Origin: Streptomyces humicola
GTDB taxonomy: Bacteria > Actinomycetota > Actinomycetes > Streptomycetales > Streptomycetaceae
Direction: 5' to 3'
DNA: 64,000 nt
Assembly (NCBI RefSeq): GCF_024436035.1
Contig: NZ_JANFNG010000003.1
Location: 248,001-312,000, forward strand
The position numbers and the translations under genes are program-made. The notes beneath the pieces are model-generated. The model ran no database searches, was not told the origin of the DNA, and saw only the letters and a program-made list of their open reading frames with translations. Position 1 is the stretch's first letter; each line of letters opens with the position of its first letter. Positions 2,924 to 7,855 of this stretch are shown one piece after another.

Positions 2924-3415
2924 GTGAGGAAGTTCATCGCCCACGGGGCCGTAGGCACCGTGCTCTCCGTCGCCGCCCTCGTCCCGCTCGCCGGGGTGTC
3001 GCAGGCGAACACGCCCCTTCAGCAGGGGCCGCGCGCCGTCACGTCACACAGTCAGCGCGCCGGCGGCGACACAGACGGCGCAGACGGCGACGGGGCCGGC
3101 TACGGCAACTACCGCGGCGACCGATCGCGGGCCGGCTACTGGGAGGGCTTCCGCGACGGCTTCGCCCTCGGCGCCCGACGCGATCTCGACGACGACGGCG
3201 GCAAGCACAGAAGATCCGAGTCCTACTGGATCGGCTTCCGCGACGGCTACCGGCTCGGCGAACGCCACAGGCGTCGCCATGAGGAGAAGGGGCGCGAATG
3301 CCGTCGCAGCCGCTTCCACGACGGCTACTACGACGCCGGTTACTGCCATCACCGGCACCACCACCGCCGTCACCACCACAAGAAGAAGTGCCCCTGGGAG
3401 CTTCTGGGGCTGTGA
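2924..3415 (+). CDS. Secreted His-rich protein with GFRDG repeats
   Basis: Not a family I recognise. GTG at 2924 follows GAGGAG by 11 nt and gives a 163-residue protein. It has a clear Sec signal peptide: VRKF, a hydrophobic core, then cleavage near VSQA-NT. The mature part contains three related aromatic/glycine segments: GYWEGFRDGFALGARRD, SYWIGFRDGYRLGERHR and a weaker SRFHDGYYDAGYCHH. It ends in a His/Arg/Lys cluster (HHRHHHRRHHHKKK) that could bind metal ions or anionic polymers. A longer upstream reading frame exists but lacks a better start. The gene is unlikely to belong to the MMPL operon, because about 90 nt with palindromes separate them. Confidence 0.7.
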   Translation: MRKFIAHGAVGTVLSVAALVPLAGVSQANTPLQQGPRAVTSHSQRAGGDTDGADGDGAGYGNYRGDRSRAGYWEGFRDGFALGARRDLDDDGGKHRRSESYWIGFRDGYRLGERHRRRHEEKGRECRRSRFHDGYYDAGYCHHRHHHRRHHHKKKCPWELLGL

Positions 3416-4227: not shown

Positions 4228-4860
4228 ATGACGATCAGCAATGACACCCCTCGCACGGCTGGGCGCACCCGGTGGAAGAAGCTGGGCATCGTGATGGTGC
4301 CGACCCTGCTGGTCTCGGGCGCAGTCCTGGCGGGTGTCGACGCCGGGATCATTCCCGTGAGCCTCGCGGTCAACGCCCAGAACCTCACCCTCTCCGGGCA
4401 GAGGCTCAAGATCAGCGCCGACCGGCTGCACGGCACGGGCTTCGTCCAGTACGTGGTCGCGGACCACTCCAAGACCGGGTACTTCCCGGAGGCGTACACC
4501 GGTGTCAAGTCTGCCGACCTGTATAACCTGTGCCAGTCGGTCGCCGTCCACGTGCCGCTCCTCGGCCCGGCGACGCTGCGCGTCTCCGCCGGAGGGGGCG
4601 GGCATCCCGCGCACGCCGAGAACCTCGTCGTGCATACCGACGACCTCTCCGGCGACGCCTCGTTCCAGAACCTCACCATCGGCCAGGACGTCTCCACGAT
4701 GCCGGGTCTGTCCAACGTCGCGGCCGGCACCTGGGGGCAGCGCGCCGACGCCGTGACCATCGATCACCTGAAGCAGGCGGCCCCTGCGGTCACCGCCTCG
4801 TCGTTCAAGCTCGCCGGTCTGCATCTGAGCGTCAAGGCGGGCGACAAGTCCTGCTACTGA
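4228..4860 (+). CDS. DUF6230-type envelope protein, copy 1
   Basis: A 210-residue protein resembling the Streptomyces DUF6230 family (sometimes mis-annotated as cholesterol esterase). The N-terminus GRTRWKKLGIVMVPTLL leads into one hydrophobic segment (about residues 18-40) that acts as membrane anchor or signal. The rest is a beta-rich extracytoplasmic domain with two conserved Cys (YNLCQSV and the C-terminal KSCY), likely a disulphide. ATG 4228 follows GGGAGG by 5 nt. It is paralogous to the next gene along its whole length (shared GRTRWK, FPEAYTGVKSADLYNLCQS, IGQDVSTM, SVKAGDKSC). Function is unknown. Clustering with a DUF6114 protein is typical of the family. Confidence 0.75.
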   Translation: MTISNDTPRTAGRTRWKKLGIVMVPTLLVSGAVLAGVDAGIIPVSLAVNAQNLTLSGQRLKISADRLHGTGFVQYVVADHSKTGYFPEAYTGVKSADLYNLCQSVAVHVPLLGPATLRVSAGGGGHPAHAENLVVHTDDLSGDASFQNLTIGQDVSTMPGLSNVAAGTWGQRADAVTIDHLKQAAPAVTASSFKLAGLHLSVKAGDKSCY

Positions 4861-5039
4861 CGGGGTTCCCCCGCTGGGCCGTACGGGTGGAGCTGCCCGC
4901 CCGTCGGAGTGACGCCTCGAAGGCGTGAGTTACCCGTCGGGCCTCCCGGAGTTGGAGGCCATGTACCGCACACCGTGCGATACCGCAAGCGACTCCGGAG
5001 CCGGAGTTCCCGGTCCGCTGTGGCCCGACGGGGAGAGAT

Positions 5040-5675
5040 ATGACGATCTGTACGGACAGCACCCTGTTTTCCGGCCCCGCCGGCCGCACGCGCTGGAAGC
5101 GGCTGGCCGTGGTGATGGTTCCCACCCTCCTCGCCTCGGCGATGGTGTTCGTCGCCGTCGCGCGGGGCGCGCTCGCCGCATCGTTCGGCGTCTCGGCCAA
5201 CTCGTTCATCGTCTCGGGCAAGACCTTCGAGATCGCCGCCAGTGAACTCGACGGCGACGGCTTCGTCCAGTTCGGCGCCGTCTCCGTCGGCAAGTTCGAG
5301 TCCTTCCCCGAGGCGTTCACCGGCATCAGGTCGGCAACCCTCTTCAACCTGTGCCAGTCCGTCGTCCAGCACCTCCCGCTCGTCGGCGAGTACACGCTGA
5401 AGACGACCTCGACCCCCGTGCACGCCGACCGGCTGCTCGTCTGGGCGCACGACCTGCGCGGCGACGCCTTCTTCCGCGACATCAACATCGGCCAGGATGC
5501 GTCAACCGTCCATGGAGTGCCGGGAATTCGCGGCGAACCGGGCGGATTCGCCGAGCAGGCGGACTTCACGCGCGTCAACCATCTGCGGCAGGCGACACGT
5601 GCGATTCACGCGGCCACGTTCACCTTCCCGAACCTGCACCTCTCGGTGAGGAGGGGCGACCACTCCTGCTTCTGA
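5040..5675 (+). CDS. DUF6230-type envelope protein, copy 2
   Basis: A 211-residue paralogue of the preceding gene, with the same plan: GRTRWKRLAVVMVPTLL, one TM segment, then a beta-rich domain with FPEAFTGIRSATLFNLCQS, NIGQDASTV and the C-terminal GDHSCF. ATG 5040 follows GGGGAGAG by 3-4 nt. The tandem arrangement, with about 180 nt between the copies, indicates local duplication followed by clear divergence. It is probably expressed with copy 1 and with the DUF6114 protein that starts 98 nt downstream. Catalytic motifs are absent, so a structural or binding role at the cell surface is more likely than an enzymatic one. That is inference. Confidence 0.75.
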   Translation: MTICTDSTLFSGPAGRTRWKRLAVVMVPTLLASAMVFVAVARGALAASFGVSANSFIVSGKTFEIAASELDGDGFVQFGAVSVGKFESFPEAFTGIRSATLFNLCQSVVQHLPLVGEYTLKTTSTPVHADRLLVWAHDLRGDAFFRDINIGQDASTVHGVPGIRGEPGGFAEQADFTRVNHLRQATRAIHAATFTFPNLHLSVRRGDHSCF

Positions 5676-5773
5676 TCCGCCCGCTGCACCGAACCGGGGA
5701 GCCCGGCACCGCGGCGGCGGGACGCCGCTGCGGTGCCGGGCTCTCAGACAACCACCAACTCGGGGAGTTCGAT

Positions 5774-7855
5774 GTGAGTAGTGCGCCGGTGCGCGCGGGG
5801 GACGAGACGCCGTCCGGCGGTCGGCGTTCCCCTTGGAGGGCGTTCCGGGACTGGCGGCACAGCCGTCCGTTCTGGGCTGGACTGTGGACGCTTCTCGCGG
5901 GCCTGGAGATCCTCTCCATCCCCATTGCACCGCTGCCCCTGATGATCCACGAAGGGGTCGCGGGCGTCGCGGGCGGGCTCATGGGGATCTTCATGATCGT
6001 CCTCGGGCTGAGCATGTGGGCCGCCCCGAACTACCGGGCGTTCGCGGGGATCGCGACCCTGATCCTCGCCATCGCCTCGCTCGTGCTGTCCAACCTCGGC
6101 GGATTCATCATCGGATTCCTGCTCGGCATCATCGGCGGGACGATGGCGATCAGTTGGGTGCCGGACGGTACGCCGGAGCCCCCGCCGATCGTCCCGGACT
6201 GGTCGGGTAGCGGCGGCGGGGACGGTCGCGGGGGAGCGGGCAGCCCGGGAGGCAACGGAGGCGCCGGGGGCAACGGGGGTACGCCGGGCTCCGGCGGCAT
6301 CAGCGGCACGGGCGGACCGGGCGCCGGCGCCTCGGGCGGCGGGTCGGACCGCCCGTCGGGCCCGAGCGTCGCGTACCGCCGCCTCTTCGGCGACCGGCTG
6401 CGGGTCCTCGGGGTGCTGCCCGTCGGGGCGCTGATCGCCGGCGGGCTGCACCCGCTGCCCGATCCCGGATCCCGGCTGCCGCCCGATGCCTACGACCCGC
6501 TCAGCATGCTCAGCGACGTACTGCAGATCGACTCGAAGCACGGTAAGCAACAGGACCACGGCATCTGCTCGTTGCTCGACGGGCTGATGGGCGCGAGCGA
6601 TTCGACATCGCACGGACACGGCACCCACTCGTACGACAGCGACCGCAGCTCCGGCAAATCACCCGACCGTCCGAACCTCTACCAGGTGAGCGTGCATGCC
6701 CCGTTGGGGCTGCACACCTCCGTCCGCCTGCACTTCCCGGGCCAGCGGGACGACCGCGGCGACCACGACGGCGGCTCGCACAGGAGCACCGTGCGCCACC
6801 ACTCCGGAGGCGGACTGCTGCGCGCCGTCTCCGACCTGCTCGGCCTCGACGAAAACTCCAGACATCACGCACACGACGCGACCTCCACGAGCCGGGCCGT
6901 CCACTCCCCGGCGGCGCCGTCGCGCGCCAGCGTACGGGCGCTCACCGCGCCGCAGCACAGCGACGCGAGCCCGCACCATGACGGAAGCGAGCCGGGCAAC
7001 TCCGATCACCAGGACGACAAGGGTGATGAGGGAGGCAAAGGCGATACAAGCGACGCATCGAGTCTGCAGGGCCTGCTCTCCGGCAACTCCCTCACCCCGC
7101 ACCTGCTGCATCTCAAGATCCCCCCGCTCCCGCGCGACGGCGGCATGGACAAGCTGCTGTCGAATCTCCCGCTGCAGTTCACGGCGTCGGGGAAGGCAGA
7201 CCACGACTCGCCCTGGTGCATCCCGTCCCTCAAGTACGACTTCGTCCCCGACGCCCACAAGTTCAGGCCACCGGTCGCCGCCCAGCCGTTCAAGGTGCTC
7301 ACACCGCTGCTCGTCCTGGTCAACCTGACGTTCCACGGCATCACCTCGCTGCCGACCAGCGAGGGCCGTACGAAGGTGCTGGTCTTCACGGCGACTCAGG
7401 TCGACATCGACAGCCTGCGCCAGACCAACCCGCTGCTGCCGCCCGACTGCGGACACGGCGGACCGCGCATTCACTACCCGCGCTTCCGCGGACTCCCCGG
7501 CGTGCGGTTCCCCCTCGACGACGACTCCAGCATCCAAGGCATCAACGGCATCGGCAAGGTCGACCGGCACGCCGACGGACCGTGGAGCGTGTGTCAGGGA
7601 CGAGTGCATACCGACGCCGCGCCCGGCAGCACCACGGTCGGCACCGGTCGGCCCGTCGTGTTGCTGACAAAGGTGCTCAGCGGCAGCCTCCTCGGCCTGC
7701 TCCCGGTCGTCTTCACCCCGAGCATGCCGCCGCCGCTGCCGACCGGGCTCACCCTGCCGATCCCGATCTTCTTCACCAACGTCGTCGCCTACAACCAGTT
7801 CCTGAGCACCGAAAGGCTCACCATTCCCGGGCTGCACCTGTACGTCAGCCCGTGA
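5774..7855 (+). CDS. DUF6114-type membrane protein with long extracytoplasmic tail
   Basis: A 693-residue protein. Residues about 20-140 form a compact four-helix membrane domain (FRDWRHSRPFWAGLWTLLAG, then three hydrophobic segments ending GIIGGTMAISWVP), which matches the DUF6114 pattern. A Gly-rich linker follows (about 155-195), then a long Asp/His/Ser-rich region (about 230-450), then a beta-rich domain (about 510-690). Segments such as LTFHGITSLPTSEGRTKVLVF and LLGLLPVVFTPSMPPPLP are reminiscent of the C-terminal domains of other DUF6114 proteins. GTG 5774 follows CGGGGAG. It is longer than the usual 400-500 residues because of the His/Asp-rich insertion. It is likely a partner of the two DUF6230 proteins. 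Confidence 0.75.
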   Translation: MSSAPVRAGDETPSGGRRSPWRAFRDWRHSRPFWAGLWTLLAGLEILSIPIAPLPLMIHEGVAGVAGGLMGIFMIVLGLSMWAAPNYRAFAGIATLILAIASLVLSNLGGFIIGFLLGIIGGTMAISWVPDGTPEPPPIVPDWSGSGGGDGRGGAGSPGGNGGAGGNGGTPGSGGISGTGGPGAGASGGGSDRPSGPSVAYRRLFGDRLRVLGVLPVGALIAGGLHPLPDPGSRLPPDAYDPLSMLSDVLQIDSKHGKQQDHGICSLLDGLMGASDSTSHGHGTHSYDSDRSSGKSPDRPNLYQVSVHAPLGLHTSVRLHFPGQRDDRGDHDGGSHRSTVRHHSGGGLLRAVSDLLGLDENSRHHAHDATSTSRAVHSPAAPSRASVRALTAPQHSDASPHHDGSEPGNSDHQDDKGDEGGKGDTSDASSLQGLLSGNSLTPHLLHLKIPPLPRDGGMDKLLSNLPLQFTASGKADHDSPWCIPSLKYDFVPDAHKFRPPVAAQPFKVLTPLLVLVNLTFHGITSLPTSEGRTKVLVFTATQVDIDSLRQTNPLLPPDCGHGGPRIHYPRFRGLPGVRFPLDDDSSIQGINGIGKVDRHADGPWSVCQGRVHTDAAPGSTTVGTGRPVVLLTKVLSGSLLGLLPVVFTPSMPPPLPTGLTLPIPIFFTNVVAYNQFLSTERLTIPGLHLYVSP

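Follow-up and report, generated by a model that had tools for sequence, protein, structure and literature searches.

We analyzed a 64,000-nucleotide (nt) stretch of the Streptomyces humicola contig NZ_JANFNG010000003.1 (the window; coordinates are positions in it unless a locus number is given) and focused on three genes, A, B, and C, that run from the ATG at 4228 to the stop at 7855, exactly where an earlier reading of the letters alone (the sequence-only reading) had placed them. A and B each encode a DUF6230 protein (Pfam PF19741; E values of 4.7e-47 and 3e-40, 160.3 and 138.3 bits, respectively), and residues 24 to 128 of C match DUF6114 (PF19609; E 3.7e-36, 124.4 bits); all three exceed the curated Pfam cutoffs of 27.5 bits for DUF6230 and 27.9 bits for DUF6114. 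The start context of gene C, CTCGGGGAG...GTGAGTAGTGCG, is seen again in relatives. Taken as a whole, we read the trio as one envelope module with a fused C protein that handles hydrophobic compounds at the cell surface, and we give this statement a probability of roughly 0.45; its parts, discussed below, differ widely in strength (Table 1).

Table 1. Features of the A-B-C trio
Feature	Position	Strand	Description
Gene A	4228..4860	+	DUF6230 protein, 210 aa; N-terminal hydrophobic anchor at about residues 19-37 and extracytoplasmic beta domain (predicted)
Gene B	5040..5675	+	DUF6230 protein, 211 aa; N-terminal anchor helix 17-41, beta domain 61-205 (predicted)
Perfect 23-bp hairpin, 3-nt loop	5697..5745	+	Between B and C; candidate terminator, attenuator or processing site
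Gene C	5774..7855	+	693 aa, GTG start; DUF6114 membrane domain fused to C-terminal beta domain
DUF6114 domain of C (residues 24-128)	5843..6157	+	Predicted four-helix membrane bundle
Gly-rich linker of C (residues 135-208; Gly 39%)	6176..6397	+	Predicted disordered
Short hydrophobic segment of C (residues 209-230, LRVLGVLPVGALIAGGLHPLPD)	6398..6463	+	Proposed signal/anchor relic of a once separate protein
His/Asp/Ser-rich linker of C (residues 236-440)	6479..7093	+	Predicted disordered except for a short conserved GGLL..V..LLGL helix
C-terminal beta domain of C (residues 441-693; confident strands 506-692)	7094..7852	+	Homologous to a separate secreted protein

AlphaFold models the beta domain of B as long strands following the N-terminal helix, with a predicted local distance difference test score (pLDDT) mostly above 90, and in the model of C the helices at residues 31 to 126 and the strands at 506 to 692 are confident. 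An envelope location fits the predicted N-terminal signal anchors of A and B and the four predicted membrane helices of C. The N terminus of A (4228 to 4332) also weakly resembles the NCBIfam model GIVxVP (17.3 bits; cutoff, 35), possibly a common membrane-anchor motif.

The sequence-only reading had described the third gene as a DUF6114 gene enlarged by roughly 200 His/Asp/Ser-rich residues between its membrane and beta domains. The composition was confirmed (residues 236 to 440, approximately 205 residues, contain 9.8% His, 12.2% Asp, and 16.1% Ser, and pLDDT is below 50 almost throughout), but the stretch is not an insertion. A second DUF6230-DUF6114 locus in the same genome (L007, approximately 72 kb away and outside the window) encodes, in order, TetR, a thioredoxin-like protein, DUF6230 (207 aa), DUF6114 (183 aa), and a separate, secreted-looking protein of 406 aa that includes a Ser/Pro-rich stretch and a beta domain. 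The C-terminal part of C matches this separate protein (phmmer E 1e-19), and profiles built from the fused C proteins and from the separate-protein group align with a probability of 99.6 (hhalign E 7e-25). Because the C-terminal half of C is homologous to the product of a separate downstream gene, C is, by this homology, a fusion of two neighboring genes, DUF6114 and a secreted beta-domain protein, and the His/Asp/Ser-rich stretch is the unstructured linker of the secreted protein brought in by the fusion. The hydrophobic segment at residues 209 to 230 is conserved in nine of nine fused proteins of the alignment, and the equivalent place in the separate protein is its N terminus; we propose that the segment may be the relic of an old signal or anchor. 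Measured in full, the linker spans anywhere from 209 to 394 residues in 12 fused relatives, with a His content of 1 to 10%, and the alignment of fused proteins shows no conserved His in this region; its His/Asp richness is not a conserved trait. We regard this module anatomy and the fusion origin of C as close to certain. In one locus of the tandem clade (L045, 4912 to 8856), DUF6114 and the beta domain occupy two adjacent open reading frames, either because the fusion was split or because sequencing introduced a frameshift.

The beta domain at the C terminus of C is itself likely to share a distant ancestor with DUF6230, as judged from profile comparison. With a diversified profile, the two align collinearly over 144 columns (hhalign E 6e-5, probability 65; reversed controls, E 0.13 to 0.32), although the match was not significant with less diverse profiles, and the strand order is similar in the C-terminal halves of the AlphaFold models of B and C. 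Foldseek and VIA-align searches with the DUF6230 beta domain turned up no solved structure that was convincingly related (best E 0.015, Z 3.4), which does not imply that the fold is new, and a PDB sequence search returned one weak match to a putative adhesin (E 0.026) that was not used. In the VIA-align comparison of C, which barely probed its beta part, the matches (copper storage proteins, TARP, and p22phox) were confined to the helical bundle; this arrangement is common, and no function was drawn from it.

A scan of public genomes queried with the alignment of fused C proteins yielded 28 loci, while a search with the C sequence alone found no related loci. A DUF6230 gene lies upstream of the DUF6114 gene in all 28, and in the window it does so directly and on the same strand; 13 loci carry two DUF6230 genes and the other 15 carry one. 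Where DUF6230 is in tandem, DUF6114 is fused to the beta domain in 12 of 13 loci and split in the remaining one (L045). In a family-level survey, DUF6230 and DUF6114 are each found in 148 of 150 genomes, and the two genomes without DUF6230 are also those without DUF6114; in a phylum-level survey of 246 genomes, the 16 genomes with DUF6230 all fall within the 18 with DUF6114, with the pair adjacent. The adjacency also appears in a Chloroflexi contig; tblastn searches of plasmids gave two weak DUF6114 matches only and, with the Chloroflexi DUF6230 as the query, no match. The sequence-only reading had called the pairing recurrent and had named a lack of co-occurrence in other genomes as a refutation of its single unit; the pair is present or absent together.

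Phylogenies of the three proteins agree with joint inheritance. In the DUF6230 tree, the A proteins form one clade (support, 100/97) and the B proteins another (97/93), and the two are sisters; the fused DUF6114 domains form a single group with moderate support (92/88), and for A, B, and C alike the window sits beside the same five loci, all from Streptomyces. Among 14 tandem loci, the trio genes of the window are present in the 13 others, barring one split and one uncalled copy, and every flanking gene is found in at most one other locus, leaving the trio as the only conserved block. This sole conserved block, together with the matching single-clade histories, identifies the trio as a co-inherited unit. 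Co-inheritance is the strongest evidence that A, B, and C work together, and we consider it highly probable that they constitute one functional unit; the trio is a tandem, fused variant of a widespread DUF6230-DUF6114 module. One further locus (L065, 5155 to 9621) contains an expanded row of DUF6230, DUF6114, DUF6230, DUF6114, a secreted protein, and a further possible DUF6230-like protein.

Expression of the unit is less clear-cut. In the window, B and C are separated by a 98-nt gap that holds the hairpin, whose folding energy is approximately 19 kcal/mol below the shuffle mean (z -5.5) and which occurs once in this genome. The hairpin could end, weaken, or process the transcript, to judge from its sequence; a search detected neither a T tract after the stem nor a sigma-70-like promoter. 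The spacing between B and C in most relatives consists of short gaps or overlaps, and in several of 13 relatives the two genes overlap by 8 to 10 nt (with start codons chosen by the analyst). A single A-B-C operon is likely for the lineage and may hold in this genome. The alternative is that transcription joins only A and B, with C made separately or in smaller amounts, in which case the trio would not be a single operon here; a gap of this size with a strong hairpin unique in the genome points that way, but the tight spacing in relatives and the lack of a detectable T tract or promoter make this arrangement somewhat unlikely. What the sequence-only reading called one envelope unit therefore stands as to co-inheritance, single clades, joint presence and absence, anchors, and membrane helices, while the hairpin makes its co-expression less certain.

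Evidence on function comes from relatives of the module. Locus L029 carries DUF6230, DUF6114, a secreted protein, pyruvate kinase, and acetate kinase in the order of SCO5420 to SCO5424, and because pyk2 is SCO5423 (PMC7494193), synteny identifies SCO5420, three genes before the pyruvate kinase, as a DUF6230 protein. SCO5420 is upregulated almost 37-fold on Tween (PMC7494193). In Geobacillus, P21 and P16 are membrane proteins induced by long-chain alkanes, and their N termini resemble a Streptomyces lavendulae cholesterol esterase (PMC2676291); the P21 gene adjoins an alkane monooxygenase gene within a beta-oxidation gene cluster (PMC10867098). When the peptides P21-N, P16-N, and P21-37 were compared with the DUF6230 protein of L064, which adjoins DUF6114, they matched at collinear places, and none of 3000 shuffles did better. 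The pair in L064 is surrounded by genes for 3-hydroxyacyl-CoA dehydrogenase/enoyl-CoA hydratase, P450, and SDR proteins and by two TetR genes, and TetR genes lie within approximately two genes of several other modules. Together, the Tween induction, the peptide matches, and the beta-oxidation, P450, and TetR neighbors suggest surface handling of hydrophobic compounds. The module had been called functionally undescribed, which is only partly right, as the family has gone by the name of cholesterol esterase, and alkane-inducible membrane proteins that are probably related to it have been described.

We propose the following model. A and B would be signal-anchored, extracytoplasmic beta-domain proteins of one envelope module, and C would comprise the four-helix DUF6114 domain, two disordered linkers, the internal hydrophobic segment, and a third beta domain outside the cell. 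The four helices should leave the chain inside, and we infer that the hydrophobic segment crosses the membrane once more and so places the beta domain outside. In the wall space, the beta domains would bind a hydrophobic compound, such as fatty-acid esters, alkanes, or related lipids, and either hand it to the membrane or keep it away, with DUF6114 as the membrane partner. The physical association of the three proteins, the binding of a ligand, and the direction of its movement are what we infer from this arrangement, and the hydrophobic-compound role, drawn by analogy with the induced relatives, is tentative and falls short of even odds.

Several observations weigh against this model. P21 and P16 are tied to DUF6230 through peptides only; single peptides compared with the whole-family DUF6230 profile reach only p values of approximately 0.003 to 0.03, and the best of them (P21-14) lands at the position of P21-N. 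The expression data stem from a single-gene locus or from distant relatives rather than from the tandem form, and the flanks of the tandem loci (n = 14) hold no constant lipid gene. Proteins named cholesterol esterase, which may or may not belong to DUF6230, also rise on xylose or xylobiose and under nitrogen stress, so that the response may not be limited to lipids. Finally, the strong B-C hairpin argues against simple co-transcription in this genome.

The module could instead be a structural or protective component of the envelope, contributing to the cell wall, a surface layer, or resistance to detergents but taking up no substrate. Its near universality in the family and the suitability of long, disordered Gly/Pro/Ser linkers for wall-spanning proteins favor this view, as does the finding that, in deep-branching relatives, lytic-transglycosylase/M23 proteins encoded close to the pair begin with a DUF6230-like domain. 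Such SLT plus M23 peptidase proteins are encoded in L063 (1721 to 4147, minus strand) and L064 (7640 to 10273, plus strand); their DUF6230-like N-terminal domains were recognized at E 3e-7 and 7e-4 in a two-sequence search that gave no match with reversed sequences. The transglycosylase link is weak (E 3e-7, from that two-sequence search), and the strong response to Tween and alkanes points to a role that is played under certain conditions and not all the time; we therefore consider a purely structural role rather unlikely.

The annotation of SCO5420 and other proteins as cholesterol esterases raises another alternative, in which DUF6230 proteins are true secreted sterol- or acyl-ester esterases of an unusual family, helped in secretion or held in place by DUF6114 and the beta domain. 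Induction by Tween would fit such an activity. Streptomyces cholesterol esterases have reportedly been purified or cloned, in work attributed to Nishimura and Sugiyama (1994) and Xiang et al. (2007) on enzymes that may or may not be DUF6230 proteins. Across 43 DUF6230 sequences, however, Cys, Ser, Gln, and Trp are conserved, and not a single His, Asp, or Glu position reaches 85% conservation; one canonical member, that of L029, contains no histidine at all, and no GxSxG motif was found in A or B. A Ser-His-Asp triad is therefore not a feature of the family; the name is not supported by conserved catalytic residues in these sequences, and true esterase activity seems unlikely. As for the idea that the stretch is a functional insertion that binds metal and equips C with a new activity, suggested by the 9.8% His and 12.2% Asp of the stretch and by HDDHEHDHGHEHDHDH at the equivalent place in one relative, we give it almost no credence and dropped it, because conservation is absent from a linker that is predicted to be disordered and varies freely among fused relatives.

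The flanks of the trio were also inspected. Shortly before the trio, positions 2 to 2832 and the contig upstream of them (L006, 27 to 5833) encode the last part of a ketosynthase-acyltransferase-carrier protein, whose C terminus is an aminotransferase class I/II (alpha-oxoamine-synthase-like) domain, and then an MMPL transporter; the region resembles a small locus for making and exporting a lipid or polyketide. L040 likewise has an MMPL gene ahead of its trio. At 2930 to 3415 on the plus strand of the window lies a gene for a small, secreted-looking protein with repeated YWEGFRDGF and YWIGFRDGY motifs and a His-rich tail, which was not found in the other tandem loci (n = 13).

The pair is present in almost every sampled genome of the family, yet it is unnamed or called an esterase, a name that its conserved residues do not support. 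A tie to alkane- and Tween-induced proteins would give DUF6230 and DUF6114 a direct, testable role, and the natural fusion in C suggests a shared site of action for DUF6114 and the third beta domain. A bolder extension is that DUF6230 and DUF6114 form an unrecognized bacterial surface system for lipids and hydrocarbons, with related beta domains of a fold that has no clear solved match, and that the Streptomyces "cholesterol esterases" are its lipid-binding parts rather than enzymes; we consider this extension unlikely.

Four known or neighboring systems can be set beside the trio. The actinomycete cholesterol esterase family shares with DUF6230 the annotation of SCO5420 and the resemblance of P21-N and P16-N to the S. 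lavendulae enzyme (PMC2676291), but DUF6230 has no conserved catalytic triad. The Geobacillus proteins P21 and P16 (GK2770 and GK3040), compared by peptides alone, align collinearly with DUF6230 through N-terminal and C-terminal-side peptides and, like it, combine a signal peptide with a membrane-bound beta protein (PMC2676291, PMC10867098). A second fused class (L055 to L060), together with L023 and L024, resembles C in joining DUF6114, a linker, a hydrophobic segment, and a beta domain in a single protein but differs from the trio in its single DUF6230 and strongly diverged beta domain; in the DUF6114 tree, L055 to L060 are placed outside the clade of the window, making a separate fusion likely for these loci. 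The canonical Streptomyces locus (SCO5420 to SCO5422 by synteny; L007) has the same ingredients as the trio in the same order, from DUF6230 through DUF6114 to a secreted protein whose beta domain comes with a long, low-complexity linker; unlike the trio, it has one DUF6230 gene, encodes DUF6114 and the beta-domain protein separately, and has TetR and thioredoxin-TPR genes as neighbors, plus pyruvate kinase in L029.

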